Shown here: one piece after another, positions 3,081 through 45,114 of the stretch
Layout: every line of letters starts with the position of its first letter
Position numbering within the stretch: position 1 is the first letter of the stretch
Assembly: GCF_010389155.1 (NCBI RefSeq)
Contig: NC_057761.1
Coordinates: forward strand, 17,238,501 to 17,302,500
DNA length: 64,000 nt
Source: Erigeron canadensis
Lineage: Eukaryota > Streptophyta > Magnoliopsida > Asterales > Asteraceae
Direction of reading: 5' to 3'
Translations under genes and position numbers: made by a program
The notes under the pieces: generated by a model
Told to the model about the DNA's origin: nothing
The model's input: only the letters and a program-made list of their open reading frames with translations
The model's database searches: none

Positions 3081-5659
3081 CCATATGTCACGTGACACTG
3101 TTCATGGTCCTCGCCTTTAATGAAATTACAATACAATAAGAGTCATAATTATTTGTGTTTGGGCTTCTTATGCAAATGGACATTAGAGAAAAATAAAAGA
3201 GCAACCATACATTCCTTGATGGGTGCGGCCCAAAATCAAAACAAGATTAGGCTATTGCCTTTGATGTTCACGTGGGTCTCAAGAAGCAGAAGTCTATATA
3301 TTCTATTATTTGTGTTTTGGAGGGGTGGACAATTAAGAGTCGGCAGCCTCATTAATTTAGAGGGCTGCGGACGAATTTGGAAACACATAATATTCGACAG
3401 CCTAAAAGTTTGAGAGGGTGCGGACGAATCCTGGAACGAACAGAAAGTCGAACAACATCATCATGCGACAACGAATTTCTACATCTACCATTGGTGACTT
3501 GAAGATGATTATGTTCGGTTAAGGTTTTTGCAATCTCTACCGATGAACAATTGTTAGTTAATTTTACTTGATGAACTTTACTTTTAATCGCGTAAACATT
3601 GTTATTTTTGGATTATAATTCATATGACTGATTGACTATTTACTCACTATTATTTGATTGGATTTTGGTAAGACAAGTTATTGTGAGTTAATGATTTGTG
3701 TTGAGTCCACCTAGTTTAGGGATTAAGATAGGTCATATAATTAACATAGGTTGTGCCCAAAATTGTTCTTGTCAAGTAATAAAATTATGTCGATGTAATT
3801 TAGAATAAATACTCGGTAAAGTTTATTAGGTAAATTAACACAACTTTGGGGATTCGGGAGATGCACTTTTATCATCGTTTATAACTTCTCTGTTTAATTT
3901 GTCTTGTTTTATTAATTAAAGTTTAGTCAATTAACTAGATTTTAGACCCGCATCCAACACTGGACATGGGACTTACGATATTATTAATATTATATATTTA
4001 TACATTAAAGTAATAAAAACTCATAATTTCAAAGTTGAAGATATACATAAAAACTAACTATTCAGTTCAAATGTAAAAAATGTTATAAAATAAAATAAAA
4101 AACAAAATAATATTTCTTTATGTAGGTTCTGGTAAAAAGATCTTCCGGCTGCACAATCGAAGGCTGATCAAGCAATAGTTGGTGATATAAATTACACGAA
4201 TATTACAAATAAATGAACAGTTGTATAAAGGTTGTTGTTTCAGTTTTGGTAGTTGAACTTTTCCTTGAACAACATAATGAATATAATAAAATTTTAAGTT
4301 AAAGAATACTCTCTTTTTATCTAAAAATTATATTTATAACTTGTACCTATTGATATACGAATTTTGCTGTCATATAAAGACTTTTTTATTTTGTACTCAG
4401 GAGACGTCGGTAAAGTTACATCATGTAGATTTGAGTCATCGAAGTAATGGTACATGGTTTTGAAAATTTCAAATTATGTATTCATTGTATTTTTTTAAAA
4501 AGGTTGTATAGAGTTAAGTAGAATTTGGAATTTTATTTTGTATTCATTGCGTCGTTAATGTTACTATATGTGAAGCATGTAAGAGTAAGTTATAGTTTTA
4601 GGAGGATACTAACTAATCGATATAAGCCATCTTTTTTATATATTAAACAAATTATAATTGTACTTATCCAATATGATAGTTATCTTTGGTCGACTACTAT
4701 GTGTAAATATATATATTTATTTATTAATATATATAATAAAAAGTCAAGAAAAGTCAAAATTGAAAACTTAAAGAAATCGAAAGATGTAACTGGTTAATAA
4801 ATTATTAGAGCAATCATGTTTTAGTATAATAAAATTTTTTATCTTTGCTTTAGTTAATTAACATTACTTTTATTATTGTCTTTAAAATCCATTAAAATTG
4901 TTAAAAGTTGACTATAACCACAGACACAATGATACCCACTTACCCTATCTAGTATAAGGTATTTAGGTTTATTTTCGATCGATACTTCGACGTCGATCGG
5001 ATTTTAAGAGAGTGTGGAAAAAGTGAAGTGATCGAACTGACGAAAATGACCCACACTTGACTTGTACGTGGAGAGACTTAACAGAAGTACAGACAAAGTG
5101 TAAACCACATTAATGATTTTGGACCAAAAGTTGACAGAGGGATTAAAATTGCAAAAGTGACAAACCACATTAACGATTTTTGCACTTAACCCTTATTTTT
5201 ATGATACTTTAACATTATTTGTTGTTGTGTGTAAAAGTTATATTTTGTTATGAATTATGTATTTGATATTATTTTTGTGTAGATTGTGATTGTATTTTGA
5301 CTATTTTGGTCAAACTATAACACGGTTTTTTTTAGCATTCTATAAAATTAACCATACTAGTAATATCGGCCAATAACACCGACTAACCGGCAGAGGCAGT
5401 ACTAGAAAAAATTTTCAAAAAGGGCAAATAAAAAAATCCGTGAAATATAAGTATAAAAGGGGGTCAAAATGTTAGAAACCTATAGGAATTTTTTAAAAAT
5501 CGATGAAAAACTTATAAATACATGACAAAATCTAAATTTCGAGGAAGGTATTTGCCCCCTTTCCCCCCATGTGGTATCGCCACTGCTTACCGGTATGATT
5601 AAAATACCGGTATTTAATATATTTTTTTCCTCTCTCCTACTAGCTTCCCGAACTTCCTA
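3081..5659. other. AT-rich interval with no recognised gene
   Basis: Scattered short open frames only, with biased low-complexity translations. I see no conserved domain, LTR terminus or RNA gene. Blocks near 5100 and 5160 repeat the phrase AAACCACATTAA.GATTTT, which hints at an old dispersed repeat. Confidence 0.5.
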
Positions 5660-5687
5660 GCCTAGAAAAATAACCTTTAATGACACC
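5660..5687 (+). repeat. Left terminal inverted repeat of the CACTA-type element
   Basis: Matches the reverse complement of 9321-9348 at 20 of 28 positions. The outermost bases have decayed, so the diagnostic CACTA is not intact here. Confidence 0.6.
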
Positions 5688-5879
5688 TAAATTATGACAC
5701 ACACCAAATTATGACACACAAAAACATGTGGCATAAAAAAACTGTAATAAATTGTGCAATCTCAAAGCTAGATGATAGGCAATTTCTAATGTCATAAAAA
5801 AAGGTAGTCTAACACGGAGTAAAATGACATTTCCTTCGGCGACAACAAAAAAAATTGAAATCAATTCTAAAAACTTAAA

Positions 5880-6043
5880 CCCTTTCCCCTAAAACCATAT
5901 TATCCTTCCTTCACTCACTCACTCACTCTCACACACGCATTAGTCTTCAGATCCTTACTCCCTCATTATTCATCTTTTGATTAGTCTTTATAATTAGGGC
6001 TCCGATGTTCAATTTTCAATTTCAATTTAGGGCTCAAATCAAT

Positions 6044-6100
<57 letters not shown>

Positions 6101-6177
6101 CAGTTTCAATTTAGGGCTCCGATGTTCTTCACGCGCAACTTGATCCGTTCCTTCCCTTGTTTTCACTCCTGTTGCTC
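5880..6177 (+). promoter_or_regulatory. Possible captured 5' leader/first exon with splice donor
   Basis: A pyrimidine- and CACTCA-rich stretch resembling a plant 5' leader (about 5890-5940) is followed by an exon-like segment ending CTC|GTAAGTT at 6177/6178, a strong plant donor site. If used, it could provide the start of a chimeric transcript through the captured exons downstream. No start codon context or protein match was found. Confidence 0.3.
6046..6098. repeat. (AT)n microsatellite
   Basis: About 26 uninterrupted AT dinucleotides inside the CACTA-type element, flanked on both sides by a duplicated TTTAGGGCTCCGATGTTC segment. Confidence 0.95.
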
Positions 6178-6309
6178 GTAAGTTAATTAAAATTAAATTT
6201 TAGTTTATTGTAATTACTTGCTATGTTAATTAATAATTTGAAGTATAATTCAGTTGTTATGAAATGATTATTCTATCTCTCATAAGTAATTAGTTGAAAT
6301 GGAAAATAT

Positions 6310-6640
6310 TGGTGGCGATATATATACATATACATATACATATGTGTGTATCTGTATCTATATTCTATATTATATTTAAATATTTATATCTATATCTATA
6401 CATCCGTATCTATATCCATATATATGTATCTATATCTATTTCTATATCTATACAACTCGCTTCTGTATTGACGTTTAGTAGATTTCATTTGTATATTCAA
6501 CATGATGAAAAAGATGAACAGTACTGTCTATATAGCTATATATATGTCTGTCTATATAGCTATATATATGTATCTGTGTCTATATTGAATACAAAAATAT
6601 ATCTATATGTATCTGTATCTATATATCTAATAGATTAAAT
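6310..6640. repeat. Degenerate (TATCTA)n / (TATACA)n low-complexity tract
   Basis: Long run of TATCTATATC-type units with interruptions. The open frame across it (Tyr/Ile/Ser repeats) is an artefact of the repeat. Confidence 0.9.
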
Positions 6641-7465
6641 CATGCTGTTTATATAGATGCTTAATAGATCAAATAATGTTGAATCACTGCTAGAATCGTA
6701 TAAGTAGGATTTGGAGTTTTGGTTGTAATGATTCTTGTGCGTTTATATGTGTATATGCTCAATCATGTTACTGGTTTTTTGAGGATAATTTGCTTTTATC
6801 AAAGTTCAGATAAGTGCAGATAGCTTATAGAGTAAATATTTGTGTGTAAGAACGTATGAATGGGAATTGTAGTTTTGGTACCGTCCATCTAGCCAGTCAA
6901 GAAAGATGTCTATAGGAATTGTGGTTGATTCATCTGCTAAGATGAAGAACACAAATAGCAAGGGAGTTTTTAATGTTATGTATATTATATACTCCGTATT
7001 ATCTTATTAGCTTTAGCTACAGTGGGTTAACATTAACATACCTTATCTAATGAGTCTTTATATAAAAATTTACGGTTATTACAATATCACCCACTTAAAA
7101 TGATTTCATCCTCGAAATCTACTAAATTGTAAGATGTAAATTAAGTACAGTTATCGTTACTACTATGGTATGCAAATTGTTGTTATTATTATTATTATTT
7201 GTATCTCTCATGACTAATACGTTGGTGTCGTAAGCATAAAAAGAAATGAGTGGAACGGATAGAAATCTCCAAGGTGAGTGGAGTTGAGTAACAAAATTGC
7301 AGTTGTCTAAGCGACAGATTCGAACCTTCAAAATGGTAAGGTGGAGCTAAATGGAAGTCTATGTCTGTATCTGTAAGATCTCTTCATGAAATCGAGTTAA
7401 TTCAGTTCCATGCTTTATTGAAGGCACTTGTTTGAAATTGTTGTTGTGTGTTTGTTTGTGAGTAG

Positions 7466-7537
7466 GAGAAAGCTCCTTATGTTGCTAAGGCTGCCACTAA
7501 GAAACAAGAGTATGGCATTGCTGTGAAACAACATAAG
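7466..7537 (+). pseudogene. HMG-box (HMGB-type) exon fragment captured in the transposon
   Basis: After an intron-like end (TGAGTAG|GAG) the sequence reads EKAPYVAKAATKKQEY and continues 8 more residues. Plant HMGB proteins have E-K-A-P-Y/F-x-A-K-A-x-x-R/K-K-x-E-Y in helix 3 of the HMG box, so this is read as a 24-residue piece of an HMGB DNA-bending chromatin protein. The rest of the box was not found. Only one exon is represented, and it sits upstream of the DMC1 exons in the same orientation. Confidence 0.6.
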
Positions 7538-7709
7538 TTTGATCTAATATTACCTATTTCCTGTATCATCTTTTGTCACATTTTTAATGAGTTATTTGTA
7601 TTTATTTGTATCTATTTTGTGTGGTAACTGATTGTATTAAATAAGAAGCCAAGCATGTATTTGTTGCTGATCTATTGATTCTTATCCTGAACTTATGAAA
7701 ATTTTCCAG

Positions 7710-7778
7710 ATTGTTGATTTTGTCATTGCTCTGTTCCGAGTAGACTTCACTGGAAGAGGAGAACTTGCAGAGCGCCAG
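7710..7778 (+). pseudogene. DMC1: DMC1 exon fragment A (meiotic RecA-family recombinase)
   Basis: Bounded by an acceptor (TTTTCCAG before 7710) and a donor (GT at 7779), the 69-nt exon encodes [20 protein letters not shown] then ERQ. Plant DMC1/RAD51 have [14 protein letters not shown](S/T)[10 protein letters not shown] around the Walker B strand (the D of IVD). Here the usual Ser after IVD is Phe. DMC1 forms filaments on single-stranded DNA and carries out strand exchange between homologues in meiosis. The exon alone cannot function. Its exact exon borders argue that genomic DNA with introns, not a cDNA, was captured. Confidence 0.85.
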
Positions 7779-8041
7779 GTTTGTTGACTTATACTGCTCA
7801 TCTTGGAAATGCTTTGGTAAAATTTGATTAATACCCTATATATCTGTGCTCAAAAGTGACAATTCATGTATTTCATTTTTAACAATTGGCTCTGAGGCTT
7901 GTTTAATGTAGCAGTGTACATGACAAACCAAGGTTATACTTCACTTTTCAATTGAAACAGTTTAACCTAATGCAAAATAGTTGCCTTGTTTAATCTACTT
8001 AGAAAATCTCAAATGGTCATTTTGTGAATGTTTTCTTGCAG

Positions 8042-8203
8042 TGATAGCTGATCCCGGTGGTGGGGTATTCATATCAGATTAAAAAAAAAACAGCAGGAGG
8101 GCATGTTCTTGCTCATGCAGCAACTGTGAGATTGATGTTTAGGAAGGGCAAGGGGGAATAGTGTGTCTGCAAAGTGTTTGATGCACCGAATCTGCCCGAG
8201 TCA
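8042..8203 (+). pseudogene. DMC1: DMC1 exon fragment B (decayed)
   Basis: After the acceptor TTTTCTTGCAG, the frame reads [12 protein letters not shown], then a run of A with one extra base shifts frame, then [20 protein letters not shown], then a stop, then VCKVFDAPNLPE. This follows fragment A in the DMC1 protein, minus the intervening exon. The stop codon and neighbouring Cys codon fit C-to-T changes (CAG to TAG, CGT to TGT), typical of methylated silent transposon DNA. It is the C-terminal part of the RecA core (L2 side). One or two DMC1 exons that should lie between A and B are missing or unrecognisable. Confidence 0.85.
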
Positions 8204-8394
8204 TAAAAGTATACATATACAGTAATAAAATTATATTCATTACTTTAAAATAAGCAGATTAGTATCTGGTTATTTCTTCAAAGCATGTAAGAACTCTAAT
8301 ACAAGGTGATATTGGCATTGCTTTTTTCATCTCATTCGAATGATTTTTTTCGTCACTCATGTTTTGTAATTTAGTAGTTTACTGTTGGTTGCAG

Positions 8395-8448
8395 CCAATT
8401 CAAATGCCGTGAAGCTCAGTTGTGAACTTCTGCGATTATTTGTCACAG
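8395..8448 (+). pseudogene. CENPX: CENP-X/MHF2 penultimate exon fragment (histone fold)
   Basis: Acceptor GTTGCAG before 8395, donor GT at 8449. It encodes NSNAVKLSCELLRLFVT, matching the plant CENP-X (MHF2) histone-fold helix with KLSCELL(R/K)xFV. The phase matches the next exon, since splicing gives an in-frame Glu codon. CENP-X pairs with CENP-S/MHF1 in the kinetochore CCAN and with FANCM at stalled forks and meiotic joint molecules. N-terminal exons are not present upstream, where DMC1 sequence lies instead. Confidence 0.85.
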
Positions 8449-8577
8449 GTAGATCCACCTTGTTTCTAGTGACCATTACTCTATTAGTATAAAGGGAAGT
8501 GATTATTCAGTTTCTTAGCATTGGAGAATGCATATTTCTAGTGAAATTTATAAAGTTGTATATATTCTTTAATGCAG

Positions 8578-8675
8578 AAGCTGTCCAACGTGCTGCTACT
8601 ATTGCTGAAGGGGGAGACAAGATCGAAGCAACACATCTGGAAAGGATACTTCCTCAGTTGCTGTTAGATTTTTAA
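8578..8675 (+). pseudogene. CENPX: CENP-X/MHF2 last exon with native stop codon
   Basis: Acceptor AATGCAG before 8578. Joined to the previous exon it reads in frame through EAVQRAATIAEGGDKIEATH and LERILPQLLLDF to TAA. The C-terminal ILPQLLLDF is the invariant end of CENP-X proteins in plants and animals. This piece has no lesion, unlike the neighbouring DMC1 exon B. That suggests it was captured more recently, is constrained, or was lucky. It is the only captured fragment that retains a true gene terminus. Confidence 0.88.
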
Positions 8676-8864
8676 GGTACTATACGAGGTCATAGGATTA
8701 GGCATTACCATGACTTCAGTGTTGGTTTTTCTTGTGAATGCAGATCTTTTGCATGATATATGGATTTAGCTCTTTCGATGTAGTGTTTCGATGCATAAAG
8801 CTTTCAGAATCACTAGATTTAAGTATTTACATTTACACATTCCTTGTATAATTTTTGAAAACAG

Positions 8865-8974
8865 GTTACAAGGTGCAGATCCGGGAAGGTAAAAAAGAAT
8901 GCACGGATGATGATTTGGATGAAATTTGTGAAGAATGGGCAAATTATGTGGCAAGCTTCATTTATCGGTCTTGA
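8865..8974 (+). pseudogene. Unidentified captured exon candidate
   Basis: After an acceptor-like AAAACAG, the frame reads YKVQIREGKKECTDDDLDEI then CEEWANYVASFIYRS and a TGA. The composition is that of a real protein, unlike the surrounding AT-rich sequence, and codons are unbiased by repeats. The D-L-D-E-I-C-E-E-W segment faintly recalls the N-terminal region of the serine palmitoyltransferase subunit LCB1, but I would not assign it. It lies 190 bp past the CENP-X stop in the same orientation and may be a fourth captured gene. Confidence 0.4.
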
Positions 8975-9320
8975 ATTCTATATAATTTAACGGTTGTAAA
9001 CTTTTATGGTTAATTTTAGAATTTTAAAATAACTTGTGGTTGTATGAAACACATTATTTTGATATATATCAAATTCGCTCTTTTGCTATTTGTATTATAA
9101 GATTAACTCTTATTTAATGTGTGAATTTTAGTAATTTTATTTAAAAATTTTATTTTATTTTTAAAATTGAACCATGACACACAAAAAAAGTGTCATAAAA
9201 AAGTGTCATAAAAGCGTGTCATAAATTCATGACGCGCGAAATACGTGTCATAAAGATTTATGACGGGTTGATTTATGATACAAAAAGTATGTCATCTGAC
9301 CCCTTTTATAACACGCAATC

Positions 9321-9348
9321 GGTGTCATTAAAGACATTTTTTATAGTG
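9321..9348 (-). repeat. Right terminal inverted repeat of the CACTA-type element
   Basis: Ends in TATAGTG, i.e. CACTATAAAAAATGTC on the minus strand, a canonical CACTA terminus. TATGACAC-type subterminal repeats continue inward to about 9170. Confidence 0.75.
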
Positions 9349-9988: not shown

Positions 9989-11212
9989 ATGGGAAGCGTT
10001 GATCAATCAGCCGAAGACAATATTATCTCAATGTTTAAGTCGGTAAATTTGAATGAGTTTAAGCCCCTTGACCCTGAAGATTTTCGTGAAAAAGCCCATA
10101 AAATGGTTGATTTCATCGTCGATTATTATAAAAACATCGAAACCTACCCTGTCCTCAGCCGAGTTCAACCAAATTACCTAAGAAATCGGTTACCTAAAAC
10201 CCCACCAAATATACCAGAACCATTTGATACGATCTTAAGAGATATTCAAAATGATATAATCCCTGGTATGACACATTGGCTGAGTCCAAACTTCTTTGCT
10301 TTCTTTCCAGCTACTGTAAGTTCAGCTGCATTATTTGTGGGTGACATGCTATGCAATGGTTTTAATTCGGCTGGGTTCAATTGGCTAGCTTCGCCGGTTG
10401 CAACCGAGCTAGAGATGGTGGTCATGGATTGGCTTGCCACCATGCTTCAGCTCTCGAAAACCTTCATGTTTTCGGGATCTGGAGGGGGGGTATTGCAGTC
10501 CACGACAAGCGAGTCGATTTTTTGCAAGCTTGCGCTGCTAGAGACCGTGTGCTTAATGAAATCGGGGTTGAAGATGTTGGAAAGTTAGTCGTGTATGGGT
10601 CCGATCAAACTCACTCTACGTATAAAAAAACATGCAAATTAGTTGGTATACATCCACGTAACATACGATCTATTCCCACGGATCTCGAGAATGAATTTTT
10701 GTTGTCTCCTAAGGATCTGCAAAAATTCATTGAAGCTGATGTGGCAAAAGGGTTGGTCCCACTTTATCTATGTGTTAACTTGGGGACCACTTCTTCCATA
10801 GCAGTGGACCCCATCAAAGACCTTGCTGATGTGGCGCATAAGTATCGTATTTGGGTCCATGTTGATGCCGCTTATGGTGGTAATGCATGTATATGTCCTG
10901 AGTATCAACATTTTCTAGATGGAGTCGAGCAAGTCGACTTAATGAGTCTGAGCTCACATAAGTGGCTACTCAGTTACATAGACTGTTGTTGCCTTTGGTT
11001 GAAAAACCCGAATTCGGTCATTAGTGCACTTAGTACCAATCCCGAGTACTTGAGAAACAAACTCAGTGAGTCTGACTCGGTAGTTAGTTACATGGATTGG
11101 CAAGTGGGGACGGGAAGAAAGTTCAAGTCGTTACGCTTATGGTTAATTTTACGTAGCTATGGCGTAAAATTATTACAGAATCACATGAATCTCTACGATG
11201 CAATAGTAGGAA
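9989..11212 (+). pseudogene. TDC: Tryptophan-decarboxylase-like gene, frameshifted and 3'-truncated
   Basis: A PLP-dependent group II aromatic amino acid decarboxylase. The start is the ATG at 9989 (MGSVDQSAED) rather than the in-frame ATG 17 codons upstream, because plant family members begin this way. Conserved blocks are FRE.AHKMVDFIVDYY, NFFAFFPATVSSAA, GFNW..SP..TELE, VYGSDQTH, HVDAAYGGNACICPE and SSHKW, with the PLP lysine at 10960-10962. A catalytic-loop Tyr (NPEY, 11047-11049) predicts decarboxylase rather than aldehyde synthase. Gly in QVGTGRKF (11113-11115), where tyrosine decarboxylases have Ser, predicts an indolic (tryptophan to tryptamine) substrate. One base is missing near 10533, between SESIF.KLA and AARDRVL, shifting frame 2 to frame 1. 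Homology stops after DAIVGK at 11212, where a LINE begins. About 100 C-terminal residues are absent from the window. No intron is seen. Non-functional as it stands. Confidence 0.9.
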
Positions 11213-11684: not shown

Positions 11685-12990
11685 ATGAAGGATATACCAG
11701 CCTTTGATCTTAAAGCATTGGATGAACGTTTTAATAGAATATTAAAAGATAATCTACCAATGTCTGGAAAGAAAAAAAAGAAGGGTGGCAGTCCTCCTAA
11801 AGGTGGATCTCCAATCTCGGGAAAATCTGATGTTTTTAACAAGAAGGGTGAATCGTCTAATGTACCTATGGCTGCTGAAAAGCATGATACTGACCAGAAT
11901 ATTATGGAAGACACAATCAATAAAGATGGCGAAATAACAGGTGGTAGCATAAATACCACTAATAAAACTCCTGCTGATGCGTCGTCTAGTGAGAAGGAAG
12001 TTGAGGGAAGTGTTCCAGTCCCCCCATTGGCTGCGAATGCTGATATTCATATAGAAAATAAAACTAATATTGAAGAAGGTAATACCAAGAACCCTAGTCT
12101 GGGAGATGAGTCTAGCCAAGATAATAAGCTTAAAAACCTAGCTCTTGATAATAGTGAACCTCCAATATCTTATGCATCTAAGCTAAAGGAGAATACTGCT
12201 GCAAGAAAAGTTAATTTCAGGCTTATGGAATCGCATGAGGTTGTGGAAAATGTGGATATTGTTATACCTAAGGAAGCTGCTCGACAAGTCCAGTCGAGAT
12301 TTTTCGGAGGATGGGCGGAGCCTCTTAGCGTCCAAAATTGGTACTCCTAAACTACTTGATAATTATACTGCAGCAATGTGTGTAGAGTCATGCGGTCGTA
12401 GCGGTTATGCAAGGGTAATGATAGAGATAAATGCTGATAAAGAGATCAAAGAGAACCTTGTAGTTGCTATCCTACATTTGGAGGGAGATGGCCATGTTAA
12501 GGAGACGATTAAAGTAGAATTCGAATGGAAACCACCGAGATGTTCCATTTGTTGTACCTTTGGACATGCATTGTCAAACTGCCCTAAGCGAGTGCAACCT
12601 GTTCCTATTCCTAAACCGAGTATAGATAATCAAGGATTTCAACAAGTTAAGAAAAAAACAAAACAGGTTTTCCCTCAAAAGAAACCTGTACAAAATTTTA
12701 AGTATGTACCTAAAGCTAATGTTAATGTGGATAGCTCTTCGGGCACGAAACCTATGTCGACTCCTGTTCCAACCAGGAACTCCTTTGGAAGTTTAAATGG
12801 GGAATATGAGAAAAACAAGGATGTTCGCAATCAAAAAGCTAATAATACCTACAAAGTGTATGTCGATCAGGATGGTGATGAAGTAATTGATATCATTGAA
12901 ACTGAAACCTCAAAATTCGTGGCTGCGAATACGGATGCTAAAATTACTGAGGGGGCAAGCATTCCCGGACAAGAGGTTTCTAATGGGTAG
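11685..12990 (+). pseudogene. LINE ORF1 (DUF4283-like RNA-binding protein with CCHC knuckle), internally deleted
   Basis: The first part, 11685-12300, ends ...ESHEVVENVDIVIPKEAARQ then VQSRF, a conserved lead-in to the DUF4283 domain. The next frame begins directly at FSEDGRSLLASKIGTPKLLD, the second half of that domain in related plant LINEs. About 120 residues between them are missing and the frame changes at the junction near 12300. The C-terminal part has ETIKVEFEWKPPRC and the knuckle CSICCTFGHALSNCP, then a basic tail. ORF1p coats the LINE RNA. It ends with TAG at 12988-12990, overlapping the ORF2 ATG at 12983. Confidence 0.85.
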
Positions 12991-14086
12991 TATTGCAGCA
13001 TGGAATATAAGGGGGTTGAACCATCCCCTGAAACAAAATGAGGTTCATCAGGTGGTTGTAGAAAATAAGCTGAATTTTTGTGCTATTTTGGAATCTCATG
13101 TGGATGTTTCGAAACTCTTTAGTGTGTGTAAGAAGGTTTTCAAATCTTGGGATTGGACATCCAATGGGTCTTGTTGTGATAAAGGTACTCGCATTATTCT
13201 AGGATGGAATTTTGATCTTGTAAGTGTTATGGTTTTAGCACAAACAAGTCAAGTAATGCACCTTCAGATTATCTATAAGGCTGATAAAAAAATGTTCTTC
13301 TGTTCGATAGTATATGCGAATAATCATTATAAGGACAGAAGGGAATTATGGACGAGTTTGTGTGCCCACAAATCGGTCGTTCGAGATGCTCCTTGGGTAG
13401 TTATGGGGGATTTTAACTCGTCCCTCTACCTCGAAGATAATTATTACAACTCTTCATCTATTAGCATTGGAATGAAGGAGTTTAAAGAATGTGTTGTTGA
13501 AACAAAACTTGTAGATATTAATAGTTCTGAATTTCATTACACATGGACTCAAAAACCGAAAAAAGGTGTTGGAATTCTAAAGAAAATTGATAGAATTATG
13601 GGGAACATGCAGTTTATAACTGATTTCCCATCTTCTTATGCCATTTTTCAACCTTACTGTGTTTCTGACCATACCCCTTGTGTTCTGAAGCCGCCTTCAG
13701 TGGCTAGATACAGACCTAGGCCTTTTAAGTTTGCCAATTTTATTACGAGCAAATTTGGGTTTTTGGAAGCTGTAGAGAAAGGATGGAAGTAGGAGTTTAA
13801 GGGGTATAAAATGTTTTGTGTTGTCAAAAAGCTCAGAGCCCTTAAAACTCCCATGCGCAAGCTCTTACTTGAACAAGGTAACCTCCATGCTCGTGTCACC
13901 TCCTTAAAGAATGAACTTGATGAAATTCAAAAGGAAGTTGACAATAATCCAGGTGACGAATCTCTTCGTGAAAAGGAAATGACCTGTCTGGAAATGTTCA
14001 AAGTAGCTTCGTATGATGAGGAATGTTTTCTGAAACAAAAGATGAGGAATGTTTTCCGAAACAGAAAGCAAAGATTGACTGGTTAA
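12983..14086 (+). pseudogene. LINE ORF2, endonuclease part (APE/EEP family)
   Basis: The start is ATG at 12983 (MGSIAAWNIRGLNHP), chosen because NIRGLN is the first endonuclease motif and the ATG overlaps the ORF1 stop by 8 nt. Further motifs are MGDFNSSLY (catalytic Asp/Asn), the DRIM box and the SDHTPCVL histidine at the domain end. This nuclease nicks target DNA to prime reverse transcription. One in-frame TAG (13790-13792) interrupts GWK.EFKGYK. A 26-bp tandem duplication at about 14015-14067 (GATGAGGAATGTTTTC twice) then shifts the frame. Confidence 0.85.
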
Positions 14087-15428
14087 ATGCAGGTGATTCT
14101 AATACAACATACTTTCATAACACTGTTAATGTAAAAACCATAGAAAACGAATTGAAATGATAAAAGATGCTGATGGCCAGGTTTATGAGGGTGAAGCTGT
14201 AAATGATTCTCTTGTTACGCATTATACTAATTTCCTTGGTGTTGAGCAGCCTGTTGAACCGATTAATGCTGATTACTTGTTCACTAATGTTTTGGATCCT
14301 CACGTGGCTTCTCAAATGGTCATTCCTGTTTCTTTGGAGGAAATTAAGGATGCTATGTTCTCCATTGGTGACAAGAAAGCTCCTGGTCCAGATGGATTTC
14401 CCTCTGCATTCTTTAAGAAATCATGGGGAGTTATTGGCGATGAAGTGAGTTCAGCAATACAGGATTTCTTTGTGCATGGGCGCCTCCTTCAAGAGGTTAA
14501 CCATACTATCCTTGCTCTTATTCCTAAAGTAAGTACCCTTGCTACTGTGTTCGACTATCGGCCTATTTCGTGTTGTAATGTGATATACAAATGTATTAGC
14601 AAAATAATTACAAATAGAATTAAGCCTGGCCTTGATACTTTTGTTAGTATAAACCAGTCGGCCTTTATACCTGGAAGGAAGATATCTGACAATATCTTGC
14701 TCACCCAGGAACTCATGCACAATTATCATCTTAATAGAGGCCCGCCTAGATGTGCATTTAAAATAGATATTCAGAAGGCTTATGATACTGTCAGTTGGGA
14801 TTTTTTAAGGGAAAGTCTAGTGAAGTTTGGTTTCCACCAAACTATGGTTAATTGGATTATGGCCTGTGTTACTAGTGTTTCCTATTCTTTGAGTATTAAT
14901 GGTGATCTGCATGGATATTTCAAGGGTAAACGTGGTTTAAGGCAAGGTGACCCCATGTCACCTTACTTATTTACACTAGTTATGGAGGTTCTTTCTTTGC
15001 TTCTCCAACGAGCTTCTTTGGAGAACCCATTTAAGTTCCATGCTCAATGTAATAAGCAAAAAATTATTAGTGTTTGTTTTGCAGATGATCTGTTTCTGTT
15101 TGTTAGGGGTGATATTAATTCAGCTAAGACCCTTATGGACGTTTTGAACCACTTTCAAAGGATTTCTGGCCTTTCTCCGAGTCTTACAAAGAGCACAGCT
15201 TTTTTCTGTAATATTGCTGATCATATCAAGCAAGCAATTTTAGCTATTATGCCATTTGATGAAGGTAAGCTTCCTGTTCGTTATCTAGGTGTGCCGCTTA
15301 TCTCGACTAGACTGGTTTACAAAGATTGTAAGGTTTTAGTTGAAAGAATGGAAAAACGTATTGATGATTGGAAAACTAAAACCCTTTCTTTTGTTGGAAG
15401 ACTTCAACTTTTATCAGCTCGGTTTTAG
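14087..15428 (+). pseudogene. LINE ORF2, reverse transcriptase part
   Basis: Contains KKAPGPDGFPSAFFK, YRPISCCNVIYKCISKI, INQSAFIPGRKISDNIL, CAFKIDIQKAYDTVSWDF, GLRQGDPMSPYLF and the catalytic FADD box (15078-15089), i.e. RT blocks 0-5 in order. A missing base near 14133 puts the start of this part (WLNAGDSNTTYFHN) out of frame with the rest. The open frame ends at TAG 15426-15428, where a second indel separates it from the thumb/connection region. The catalytic aspartates are present, but the chain is broken on both sides. Confidence 0.88.
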
Positions 15429-15433
15429 CTTCA

Positions 15434-16684
15434 ATGCACATTTACTGGGCATCGGTCTTCATTCTTCTTGCTCGAGTTATTAAAGAATTAGAACAAAAAA
15501 TGAGAAACTTTCTATGGGGTACGGGACCTGGTGGGAAGGTTAAATCTAAAGCTTCGTGGAAATCAGTGTGTCTACCAAAATATGAAGGCGGGCTGGGAAT
15601 CAAAAGAATTTCATATTTTAATAAAGCACTCATCACTAGCCATATTTGGAGCATTGTGACTGATAGGGAATCGTTATGGGTTCGGTGGATACACTCCTAT
15701 AAACTAAAAGGTAGAAACTTTTGGGATGTTACTCCTTGTGGATCAATGAGCTGGGGATGGAGGAAGATCCTTCTATTACGGGACACTATCCGCCCTCACA
15801 TATGGAAAAAGATTGGGAATGGTCTATCTACTTCGGTATGGAGTGATACTTGGAATGAGCGTTGCCCCTTAAGGAACTTCATCTATACTAGAGACATCAT
15901 GCGAACTGGCTTTCGATTAGATTCTAATATTACTAATGTTCTTAGTAATGATTAATGGACCTGGCCTCAAGAGTGGTATAATACTTAACCTGTCCTCGAT
16001 CAGATTCATCCACCTGTGCTTCATCATAACATTCATGATCGAGCTGTTTGGAAGGATTTGGATGGAGTGGAGCAGGAGTTCTCTGTTAGCGAGGTTTGGA
16101 ATGCTGTTCGGTGTAAACAGGATAAAGTACCATGGGTGAACAATGTGTGGTTTTCTACATATGTACCAAGGCACGCGTTCCATCTATGGCTAGTTTTTCA
16201 GAATAAATTGAAGACCCAAGATAGATTGAAGGCTTGGGAAGTTGGAAGTGCCACAAATCTCAACCTCATGTGCTGCCCTTTTTGCCAAAGAGGAATAGAT
16301 TCTCGCTCACATCTATTTTTTCAGTGCTCTTTTTCTTTGCAGGTTTGGGGCCAAATTAAACATATGGCAAACATGTCAGCAGTTGTGGAATCATGGGATA
16401 GTATTGCTGGATGGCTAATTTCTAGATCTAGCTCTACTCAGAACTCAGCTGAAAGTGTAATCGCAAGACTCCTTGTGGCTGCTGCCTCATATTTTTTGTG
16501 GCTGGAACGTAATTCAAGATTGTTCTCTAATACCAAGTGCTCTGAAGCTCAAGTAAGAGAAAAAATCGTGACCACCTTACGCCTGAAGCTTCTCTCACTC
16601 AAGTTTAAGGCTACCACTAGTAATCGTCAGTTATTGAAGATGTGGGACATCCCTATGTCCAACATCTTACATGCTTCGGATTAA
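15434..16684 (+). pseudogene. LINE ORF2, C-terminal part with zf-RVT domain
   Basis: One frame throughout, with two in-frame TAA codons (15953-15955 and 15986-15988). Conserved marks are KMRNFLWG, W..VC.PK..GGLGI, WSD.W, PWVNNVWFSTYVPRHAFHLW and the zinc-binding C-C-P-F-C...H-L-F-F-Q-C set (about 16270-16330) of the zf-RVT family that ends plant L1 ORF2 proteins. The natural stop is TAA after SNILHASD. Confidence 0.85.
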
Positions 16685-17400: not shown

Positions 17401-20400
17401 TTCAGAGGAGGTTGTTGGCTCTTCAGAGAGAGCCTCCTCAAGAGTAGTATGGTTTCCCACAGAGACAAGACCAAAGGTGTTATCATCTTCATTGAAGGGC
17501 ATAATATTAGTTTCATTGCTACGAAGATATGCATAGCTGCTTACTACCTCAGGAGCACTATACTCAACTAGCATTGAAGGTTGCCCCCAAGCATTTGAAA
17601 TAACCCTTTGAGAATGGGGAAGTTCAATGCGCTGAGCAGCAATGTATTCAGCGATGTTTACATTAGTGACAGAGGAGATGTCACTGAGTACAGGTTCAGT
17701 AGAAAGGTTCTCACTGACCCTAGTAGAAGAAGATGTTTCAGCAGATATAGAGGTGTTTGGTTGAACAATCCCTGGGGCATCTCTTGAGCTGACTGAGTCA
17801 CATTCAGAGGCAACATGTCCTCTGCTACTACAAAGATAACATTTTTTGTCAGAGGGTTGCCTTTTTGATTCTGAATGAAGAAGTCCCTCAGCTGAGATGA
17901 GAGGTCATTCACTCGCTGAGTAAGCTCATTTATTTGAGGAGAGGAGGAAGATGAAGCCTTTCTCTTTTGATTAGACTTGGATTTATTCCTTTGTCTAAGT
18001 TTAGGAGGGGGCGATTGAGGAACAGGACCAAGGATGGACTCACCATGATGATTTTGAGGTCCTCTAATCATGTTCCATGCTTGCTTTCCAGGAAGATAGG
18101 AAGAAGAGGAACTCTGCTGAGACTGATTCACTCTGTTTGGAGTGATGTGTCTAGTCTGACGACTTGGAGTCACTGGCCTCATTTGCCTATGAGGTAAGTA
18201 CTCCATGTTCAACACAGAGGATTGACCATGCTGAGTAGTAATATGTCCTCTTTGTGGAGTAGTGGGTCTCATTTGCTGATGTAGCAAATGTCCCCGCTGA
18301 GGAGTTTTATGCCTTACTTGCTGATGTGGCAAGTGTCCTTGCTGAGGAGTGGTAGACCTATTTTGTGAAGGCAATCTTCCCTTTTTAGGAGTATTATGCC
18401 TTAGATTGGATTTTAGAGGCATAGATTGAGATGCCATATGAGTTTGAACATCAGCAGGTACAACCTTTGTGGGAAGTACTTGCTGATGTCTTGCGTCAGC
18501 GAACCTAACTCGTCTATTCATTAGACGATCATGTTCAGTCATAGGATTAGCATGGGTAGGTTCTAGCTGAGAGGAAGATTGAGCACTAGAATGTTGCTGA
18601 ATGACCTGATTAACTCGTTGAGGAGTACCATAGTCATAGGGAGCAGCAGTAGTGCTTCTTTTAAAGGGCTCAACACCTTTTACAAATAGTCGCTGAGGAG
18701 CAATGGGTACATATCCATTACTTGAAATATCCCCTTTAAAGGTTCTAGGTGGAGAATGTTGAATTCTCCCTTCATGTGGCATCATGCCAACAATGGGAAG
18801 ATGAGAGAACATGTCAAAAGTACTGGTTGAGGGACTGGTACTTTGAACATTAGAGGAAGAGGGCACACTGGTGGAAGATGTAGCTTTAGAATCCATCTCA
18901 GCATGGTAGTCATTTTGTCCCTTGACAAAATACCACTTTTTCATCTCTTCAGGAGAGATGGAAGCTGAAGAGGGTGGAGGAATAGAGATTTCAGGCTTTA
19001 CATCATCATTAAATGAGTCAGCAATTGAGGCAACAACATCAAAATTGCCACCAATCACTGCTTGTACTTGAGCAGGGACTTGCTCACTTAAACATTGATG
19101 ATGAAATTTGGAAGCCTTTAACCAGGAGGTCACAATCTTCTTCAGATTAGAAACTTCAGCCTTGAGAGTTTCATTCTCAAGTTGGAGTTTCTGAGTCATT
19201 AACTCATGAGATTGAAGTTCAATATGAACATTTTTCAATTTCATAAGTTTTTCAGATTTTTCACTTAACTCTACACCAACAGAGTTAAGTTTAAATTGAA
19301 GTTCAACACGTAGGCTTTCTACGAACTGAAGATCACAAGACAAAGACTCAATACTTTTGGTCTTGTCATGATCAGAAGAGGAGGAAAGAAGAGAGTGTAC
19401 CTTTTTAACAGTGACGTTTACCCACTGACTAGAGAAGACTTGATCCTTTGTCAGAGCATCACTGTCAGCAAGTGCCATAAGGCACATGGCATCAACATAA
19501 TCGTCATCATCAGAATCATCTGAGTCAGCCCAATCATGTTCTTCAGCAACTAGTCCTTTTGCTGGAACTTTGGCATCCTCTGTTTTAGCCACCTTTGCCT
19601 TCAGCTGATAGTATTTGTTCCTGTATTCATCAGCAGATTTAGAAGGATTAGGTTTAGAAGCAGCTGGAGTGGGAATAGAGACCCTGCACTCCTTCTGGTA
19701 GTGGCCTTTTCTGCCACACCTCCAGCATTCTTCCTGTGATTTATCAACAGGAGGTTTGAGGGGAGCAACCGTTTTGCGATTGTTCCACCTTCTGGAGTAT
19801 TTTCTACCAGCGACAAGGGCAAAGCCCATAAAATCATTAAACAAGTCTTGTTTCTCTTCATCATCCAGCTCATCAATGAGAGTTTGAATAGGTACTGGAA
19901 GATTTGAAATACTGGTGCCATCATAGAGGTCGATGGGCTCAGTAGAAACAAGAGCTATAGGGTCAGAAATGGGATAGGAGGATATGCTGACAGAAGAAGA
20001 AGAAGAAGAAGAAGAAGGGCCAGCATGTCTTTTGGCATCAGCAGAGGCTCGAATGTTTTGAGCCAATGCTCTCTCTTCAAATTGAAGAGTACCAAAGAGT
20101 TCTCCAAGATCAAAATCTTGAATTTTCTTCGTTGTACGAAGAGTTTGTCTTAAGTTTTGCCACTTAAGAGGAAGAGAATCGATGAATTTATGGCATACTT
20201 CAAAGTTATCATGAGCAATGCCAACATTAGTTATATCATTGAGCAACCCTTTAAAGCGAGTATAGGTGCTCTCAAGACTTTCATCAGGAAGAGAGAAGAA
20301 GTTTTCATAAGCACGTTTCAAATCAATTTTCTTGATTTTGATGAGGTCAGCAGATCCTTCATAGGTGCTGACCAATCTATCCCATACTTCTTTTGAAGAG

Positions 20401-20750
20401 GGATACTTGATGACCAGCTTCATGATTTCAGTGGGAAGAGTGACAATAATCATGTTTTTCAGCCTAGCATCAAGATTTACCAGCTTTCTTTCTTCATCTG
20501 TCCATTGAACCTCTGGTTTAACCAGGTCAGTGACAATCTCAGGAGCTTCAGGTGTAGCTCCTGGAGTCCTTTGGACATACATCGGCACGTATGGACCCTC
20601 AGTTAATATAGTCATTAAATAGGGTTCCACACCAGAGATGTGAAGAAGCATTCTCTCCTTCCAAGACCCAAAATCCTTGGGCTCGAATTTTGGAGGTGTC
20701 GACACATAACCAAAGTCACGTGTGTTCACTAGGCTGGGAACAGAAGACAT
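17401..20750 (-). pseudogene. SIRE-like gag, one frameshift from intact
   Basis: The start is ATG at 20748-20750 (MSSVPSLVNTRDFGY). The Gag domain includes KFEPKDFGSWKERML and SSKEVWDRLVSTYEG (UBN2-type). The first zinc knuckle CWRCGRKGHYQKEC lies near 19685-19728, and a coiled coil (SEKSEKLMKLKNVHIELQ) follows. The region at about 18200-18420 is a run of 15-residue TPQ.GHLPHQQ.R repeats. A second knuckle, CYLCSSRGHVASEC (17800-17841), is reached only after a one-base deletion at about 17850. The frame then stays open to about 17400. Gag packages element RNA into cytoplasmic particles. The first 1,030 codons are uninterrupted, so the element is fairly young. Confidence 0.85.
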
Positions 20751-20853
20751 GTTCTTGTTATAGAAAAAGAATTTCAAGAAAAGTTAAAGAACATAATTTT
20801 TAATGTAAACACAAGGAGGCAAACAGATCTTGTTCCAATGATTTAGGAACGGT

Positions 20854-43665: not shown

Positions 43666-45114
43666 GTGTTTAGATGTAAAAGGGATGATAAGGAGATTGT
43701 TATTAGAAACAAGGCTCGACTGGTTGTTCAAGGTTTTGCACAACAAGATGGATTAGACTATACCGAGGTATTTGCACCAGTGGCTAGAATTGAGGCAATT
43801 AGGCTTTTTCTAGCTTTTGCATCTTTTAAGGGTTTCAAAGTATATCAATTAGATCTAAAGAGTGCATTTCTCTACGGTAAAGTACAGGAGTTGGTGTATG
43901 TGTCACAACCTTATGGGTTTACTGATCCAGACTATCCTGATAGAGCTTATAAATTGGATAAATCTTTATATGGTCTTCATCAAGCACCTAGAGCCTGGTA
44001 CGATACATTATCCACACATTTGGTGGAAAATGGGTTTGTAAGAGGTCAGATTGATAGCACATTGTTTACAAAATGGAAAGGTGAAGATTTCTTATTGGTA
44101 CAAGTTTACGTAGATGACATCATTTTTGGTGCATCTGATGAGAATATGTGCAAAGAGTTTGAAGAAATAATGAAAAGCAAATTTGAAATGAGTGCAATGG
44201 GTGAAATGAATTTCTTTCTAGGACTGCAAGTTGAGCAGAAAAAGGAAGGAATTTTTATTCATCAAACCAAATATGTTTATGACATTCTTAAGAAATTTGG
44301 TATGGATGACTCTTCACCTATAGGGACTCCAATACAAGTTAATCACTTATTGGGAGCTTCAAATAGCTTGGATCAAGATGTTGATCCCACATTATATAGG
44401 TCAATGATAGGATCACTTATGTATCTTACATCATCAAGACCCGATATTATGTTTGTTGTCTGCTTATGTGCTCGATTTCAATCCTGTCCAAAAGAGTCAC
44501 ACTTGAAAGGAGTAAAAAGAATGCTTCGATACCTTAAAGGACAACCATCACTTGGTTTATGGTATCCTAGGAGAGGGGAGTTCGACCTGTATGCACATAC
44601 AGACTCTGATTATGGTGGTTGTAATTTCGATAGAAAATATACTTCAGGAGGATGTCAATTTTTGGGAGATAGATTGGTATCATGGCAGTGCAAAAAGCAA
44701 ACATCCGTTGCAAATTCAACCTGTGAAGCAGAATATATGGATGTTGGAAGCTGTTGCTCACAAGTGCTTTGGATTCAACAACAACGACGTGACTATGGTT
44801 TGAATTTCTCCAATACTCCTATTAAAACTGATAATAAATCTGCTATTTCTATCACCAATAATCCTGTCAAGCATAGTAAAACGAAGCATATTGATATTAG
44901 ATATCATTTCATTCGTGATTGTGCTGAAAAGAAGTTAATTCATCTTGAGAAAGTGCTATCCGATGACAATCTAACCGACTTTTACACTAAAGCCTTTGAT
45001 CGATCACGTTTTGAGTTTCTAGTCCAGGTAACTGGAATGAGAAACCCCTATTTCATATCTCTCAAGAGCCAGCTTATTCAGAAAATGCAACACAAAAATA
45101 GAATAACGGTTTAA
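43666..45114 (+). CDS. Copia reverse transcriptase and RNase H (open frame)
   Basis: 482 codons uninterrupted. RT blocks: RLVVQGFAQQDGLDYTEVFA, VYQLDLKSAFLYGKV, SLYGLHQAPRAWYD, and YVDD at 44107-44118. RNase H: HTDSDYGGCNFDRKYTSGGC, SVANSTCEAEYMDVGS, DNKSAISITNNPVKHSKTKH. Ends KMQHKNRITV, TAA at 45112-45114, followed at once by GGGGGAG. The true start is upstream, in the polyprotein; the first Met here follows a nonsense codon. All catalytic carboxylates seem present, so this part is well preserved although the polyprotein is broken. Confidence 0.88.
   Translation: MFRCKRDDKEIVIRNKARLVVQGFAQQDGLDYTEVFAPVARIEAIRLFLAFASFKGFKVYQLDLKSAFLYGKVQELVYVSQPYGFTDPDYPDRAYKLDKSLYGLHQAPRAWYDTLSTHLVENGFVRGQIDSTLFTKWKGEDFLLVQVYVDDIIFGASDENMCKEFEEIMKSKFEMSAMGEMNFFLGLQVEQKKEGIFIHQTKYVYDILKKFGMDDSSPIGTPIQVNHLLGASNSLDQDVDPTLYRSMIGSLMYLTSSRPDIMFVVCLCARFQSCPKESHLKGVKRMLRYLKGQPSLGLWYPRRGEFDLYAHTDSDYGGCNFDRKYTSGGCQFLGDRLVSWQCKKQTSVANSTCEAEYMDVGSCCSQVLWIQQQRRDYGLNFSNTPIKTDNKSAISITNNPVKHSKTKHIDIRYHFIRDCAEKKLIHLEKVLSDDNLTDFYTKAFDRSRFEFLVQVTGMRNPYFISLKSQLIQKMQHKNRITV

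Follow-up and report, generated by a model that had tools for sequence, protein, structure and literature searches.

A 64,000-nucleotide stretch of the Erigeron canadensis genome (contig NC_057761.1, positions 17,238,501 to 17,302,500; hereafter the window, from whose first letter all coordinates are counted) holds, at 5660-9348, what is very probably a degraded non-autonomous CACTA (En/Spm-type) element whose original interior has given way to genomic fragments from host genes. Its gene content includes at least DMC1 (three pieces) and CENP-X/MHF2 (the last two exons), together with other exon-like pieces. A preliminary description of this interval had proposed a CACTA element carrying fragments of three host genes, HMGB, DMC1 and CENP-X. 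The contributions of DMC1 and CENP-X are well supported, while HMGB as a third gene is not.

The 3' terminal inverted repeat (TIR), at 9321-9348 on the minus strand, retains an intact CACTA end, with a perfect TAGTG at 9348, and reads CACTATAAAAAATGTCTTTAATGACACC inward from that position. The 5' TIR, GCCTAGAAAAATAACCTTTAATGACACC, at 5660-5687 on the plus strand, is decayed and starts with GCCTA. When both strands of the window were scanned with the 3' 28-mer, 5660-5687 was the top other match, with 21 of 28 positions identical. The runner-up matches reached 19/28 on the minus strand (at 4393) and 18/28 on the plus strand, and none of 200 Markov control sequences of 2 kb reached 21/28 (maximum 19). 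The 14 other TIR-like matches listed in the window, three of them inside the element, score 17-19/28, which is the level of chance. The 13-mer CTTTAATGACACC, allowing at most one mismatch, has two copies in the window, both exact, one in each end and in inverted orientation; a count of two was obtained in 1 of 100 shuffles. A TIR scan of viral contigs gave no match, as expected of a plant repeat.

Directly inside these ends lie subterminal arrays. The left array (5680-5798) consists of TATGACAC/TGACAC units with one TGTCATAAA, and the right array (9173-9320) mostly of GTGTCATAA units, with the reverse form present once. TGACAC and GTGTCA have 4 and 5 sites in the two ends and none in the 3.3-kb middle (5861-9159); neither hexamer is rare across the window, with 12 and 20 sites altogether. 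The middle of the element does contain a single site of each of the looser forms ATGACA and TGTCAT. TGTCATAAA has seven copies in the window, five of them in the element ends; none of 100 shuffles reached seven. The subterminal repeats that had been described are thus confirmed, and they occur in direct and inverted orientation, as in the CACTA superfamily.

With respect to the interior, three consecutive DMC1 exons are represented, in gene order and collinear on the plus strand. The piece at 7710-7778 encodes 23 residues, 22 of which are as in Mikania and Centaurea DMC1, and matches Pfam Rad51 at E 2.8e-7. The piece at 8042-8203 matches the same family at E 7.4e-18; it carries a net +1 frameshift at the A-run 8081-8090, an in-frame TAG and also residue replacements. 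Between them, tblastn with Mikania DMC1 (7902-7931) identified a remnant of the intervening exon at 7902-7932, FNVAVYMTNQ, identical at 10 of 10 residues and followed by GT. A complete middle exon was considered and rejected, as the match upstream of FNVAVYMTNQ is at shuffle level (70 of 100 shuffles reached the observed score). In PDB, chains labelled DMC1 come out on top (5.6e-30), and the first one labelled RAD51 follows at 1.3e-27. Of 631 protein matches, 120 were listed; those that bear a name are plant proteins, many of them designated DMC1. The variants in the DMC1 pieces are common to Asteraceae proteins, but also to others. The earlier assignment to DMC1 is therefore upheld by Pfam, PDB and plant proteins; the number of pieces is revised from two exons to three pieces, including the FNVAVYMTNQ remnant.

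The two CENP-X/MHF2 exons, which had also been proposed before, are borne out. The penultimate exon (8395-8448, plus strand) and the last exon (8578-8675, plus strand), which has its stop codon where expected, join in phase and match CENP-X in Pfam (6.3e-15), in PDB (3.6e-9) and in plant MHF2 proteins (2e-19). The nearest CENP-X among the matches listed is that of Erigeron canadensis itself (96%), which leads the nine best entries; the species of these nine all belong to the Asteraceae, and such relatives point to an Asteraceae host, probably an Astereae-like one. Across the 50 residues of the fragment, the sole difference from Erigeron canadensis MHF2 is the in-frame loss of one Ala-Glu pair at 8600-8620 (AEAEGG to AEGG), with no substitution. 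Of 329 relatives, 120 were listed; none of these contains the resulting string TIAEGG, and both sequence blocks of the fragment are found exactly in the Erigeron canadensis protein only. No counterpart of the N-terminal half of CENP-X turned up. Two Lactuca sativa CENP-X entries (P0151 and P0200) are longer than usual, at 194 and 147 residues, and look like annotations that take in intron or upstream sequence.

The DMC1 and CENP-X pieces share the plus strand, have AG/GT borders at their exon limits and keep intron-like sequence between them. The retained introns, together with the in-phase CENP-X exons, indicate that genomic DNA was captured. No transposase was detected in a six-frame Pfam scan at E ≤ 1, as expected of a non-autonomous CACTA element. 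Apart from one weak ASY3-like match, all that the scan picked up was Rad51 and CENP-X on the plus strand, with nothing on the minus strand, and the Rad51/DMC1 and CENP-X pieces pass the Pfam cut-offs even when read unjoined. The single orientation and splice-bounded structure noted previously hold for DMC1 and CENP-X, and the scan agrees with the lack of transposase noted for the element.

Several points weigh against this reading. The CACTA...TAGTG rule holds at the 3' end only, the 5' end being GCCTA, and the two ends are identical at 21 of 28 positions. A 3-bp target-site duplication was looked for and is absent, with CTA before 5660 and GTG after 9348. Furthermore, that the element itself captured the gene pieces, rather than their being assembled in another way, is something we infer. 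The unmatched triplets could be explained by an old insertion or by a lost left end. Given these triplets and the GCCTA start, the element is either an old, decayed copy or one with damage at its true left end, which would make the left boundary uncertain. The CACTA-like termini of the preliminary description thus stand for the 3' end and the pairing of the ends, and fall short at the 5' end. The element carries captured host coding DNA (DMC1, CENP-X), as Pack-CACTA elements do; because the target-site duplication is absent, we describe it as CACTA-like, degraded and of the Pack-CACTA type, and not as a proven member.

The published model for Pack-CACTA capture starts from a tandem insertion, after which the elements are excised aberrantly and carry complementary deletions at their termini (PMC13317346, PMC8903248). 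The present element may have followed this route of tandem insertion and aberrant excision, in which case its gene pieces would have been copied from genomic DNA during the mobilisation and repair of two neighbouring elements. Its past movement would have relied on transposase supplied elsewhere and bound to the subterminal repeats, and the element would now drift without function.

We considered whether the gene pieces could instead have been gathered by a Helitron, a Mutator-like element or break-repair filler DNA, the CACTA-like ends on either side then coming from a CACTA element that landed close to these pieces or enclosed them. The unmatched triplets and the non-canonical 5' end are what such a history would leave. 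However, TGACAC/GTGTCA stands directly inside both ends and is absent from the 3.3 kb between, and the 28-nt ends pair at 21 positions where the rest of the window offers at most 19, which makes assembly by another process unlikely. A different proposal is that the pieces form an expressed chimeric gene retained for its function. It draws on the GTAAGT donor at 6178, on the acceptor and donor borders of several pieces and on the CENP-X piece, which apart from its two-residue deletion has no substitution relative to Erigeron canadensis MHF2. We examined all 255 combinations of eight exon-like pieces, taking every frame; the outer limits of pieces 1, 2, 5, 7 and 8 were partly arbitrary, and no GT follows the end of piece 2. 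In none of the 255 did an ATG frame include the DMC1 core or an open frame connect DMC1 with CENP-X, and ATG frames that take in the CENP-X end reach 60 residues at most. The piece at 5890-6177 joined to that at 8865-8974 does give an open ATG frame of 93 residues, or 100 with the 7912-7932 piece, which also speaks for a chimeric gene. This 100-residue frame, the longest overall, takes 58 residues from the leading piece (17 of them microsatellite) and most of the rest from 8865-8974, and contains the identified core of neither DMC1 nor CENP-X. A product of this frame may be made; nothing in the sequence points to one from DMC1 or CENP-X. Against a retained chimeric gene stand the DMC1 frameshift and stop, the results of the frame test and the missing N-terminal half of CENP-X, and we regard such a gene as highly improbable. 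The chimeric transcript suggested earlier likewise finds no support, given the DMC1 frameshift and stop and the lack of any frame joining DMC1 to CENP-X.

DMC1 is a strand-exchange recombinase and MHF2 a cofactor of FANCM, and both are meiotic recombination genes. It could be supposed that small RNAs from the element target the parental DMC1 and MHF2 during meiosis, much as captured fragments in maize Helitrons, Pack-MULEs and Sireviruses are described as reservoirs of small interfering RNAs acting on donor genes (PMC13317346). However, the element's 99 inverted-repeat pairs have their 25 longest members, those that were listed, within the AT-rich 6033-6586 and outside the gene pieces, and selection may remove silencing that hits an essential donor gene (PMC13317346); we would give such an action very little credence. 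Equally far-fetched would be a feedback in which the DMC1 and MHF2 pieces, through small RNAs or as splice-competent decoy exons, altered crossover number. The link to meiosis is weak because only two genes are involved and they were chosen after the fact, and the meiotic theme is most likely due to chance. Of the functionally related genes claimed to have been captured, DMC1 and MHF2 remain, with their link picked afterwards, and HMGB does not. The interval holds a real feature that the preliminary description outlined correctly, and it reads as an ordinary case of gene capture for plant genomes, in which the third gene and the function had been over-read.

Among the closest known parallels is Tgm-Express1, a soybean CACTA element described with five host gene fragments (PMC1947982). 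The two share the CACTA superfamily, several host gene pieces, exons with introns and a size of a few kb (PMC1947982). Tgm-Express1 sits within an F3H1 intron, and reverse-transcription PCR showed that its exons are spliced into chimeric transcripts (PMC1947982); the present element, in contrast, is decayed, lies upstream of a decarboxylase-like gene and is known from sequence alone. Pack-TYPE elements in maize often carry several loci, with Pack-CACTA elements carrying the most distinct loci (PMC8903248), and captured gene fragments are also described in CACTA-like elements of Chenopodium (PMC8978399). The Pack-CACTA elements of Arabidopsis, rice and maize were annotated by TIRs and target-site duplications, with singletons removed (PMC8903248), whereas here the target-site triplets are mismatched. 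In lettuce, CACTA ends were taken as 28 nt, and the majority have a CTTTA/CTTTTA motif (PMC8195511). The present element resembles lettuce LsC1-family CACTA elements in belonging to an Asteraceae genome and in its imperfect 28-nt TIRs, and shares the CTTTA/CTTTTA of most lettuce TIRs; LsC1 itself, as described there, is without this motif, and the comparison is limited to the ends (PMC8195511). A literature search found no capture of DMC1 or MHF2 among the matches listed. The element is one further CACTA-type case of captured fragments, introns included, from several host genes, in this instance in Asteraceae. It would have wider import only if meiotic cells expressed its DMC1 and MHF2 pieces or if these yielded small RNAs against their parents.

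Other exon-like pieces accompany DMC1 and CENP-X on the plus strand. The piece at 7466-7537, EKAPYVAKAATKKQEYGIAVKQHK, had been read as an HMG box from HMGB. Its pattern EKAPYVAKA...KxEY resembles plant HMGB proteins, a likeness that no library confirmed. The piece gave no Pfam family and no PDB match at E ≤ 10, and in the protein database at the same threshold 19 candidates, none of which scored, with only proteins of 165-525 residues eligible. HMGB as a third captured gene is thus without support from all three libraries, which is not disproof, since a query of 24 residues makes them weak tests.

What may be a leading exon spans 5890-6177 (plus strand, start guessed), ahead of the GTAAGT donor, and contains an AT microsatellite; a translated portion of it matched no Pfam family at E ≤ 10. 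Within it, a 24-nt unit is duplicated at 5987-6010 and 6104-6127 (88% alike), flanking the microsatellite. The piece at 8865-8974, YKVQIREGKKECTDDDLDEICEEW..., also on the plus strand and missed by the preliminary description, is preceded by an acceptor-like AG and ends in a stop. Its matches were a chance-level one in Pfam (E 0.17) and another to a designed protein (E 9.9), and proteins of 165-525 residues included no relative. Serine palmitoyltransferase LCB1 was considered as its parent and set aside, being backed by no search. The match to an ASY3-like family, a meiosis-specific protein, lies near 6879-6953 and is weak (E 0.089, below the cut-off); it is the sole further hint of a meiotic theme and is probably due to chance.

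Beyond the element, a pyridoxal-dependent decarboxylase gene at 9989-11190, which we take to be of the tyrosine/DOPA type, starts about 640 bp after its end. The decarboxylase Pfam domain resumes in another frame near 10525-10530, and the gene looks frameshifted. Open frames on the plus strand at 11685-16684, one with an RVT_1 reverse transcriptase domain (14157-15428), resemble a LINE-type element that closely follows the decarboxylase piece and may interrupt it. Copia-type remains at 17658-20777 and 43666-45114 include gag on the minus strand and an RVT_2 reverse transcriptase on the plus strand, and the window as a whole is rich in retroelements.

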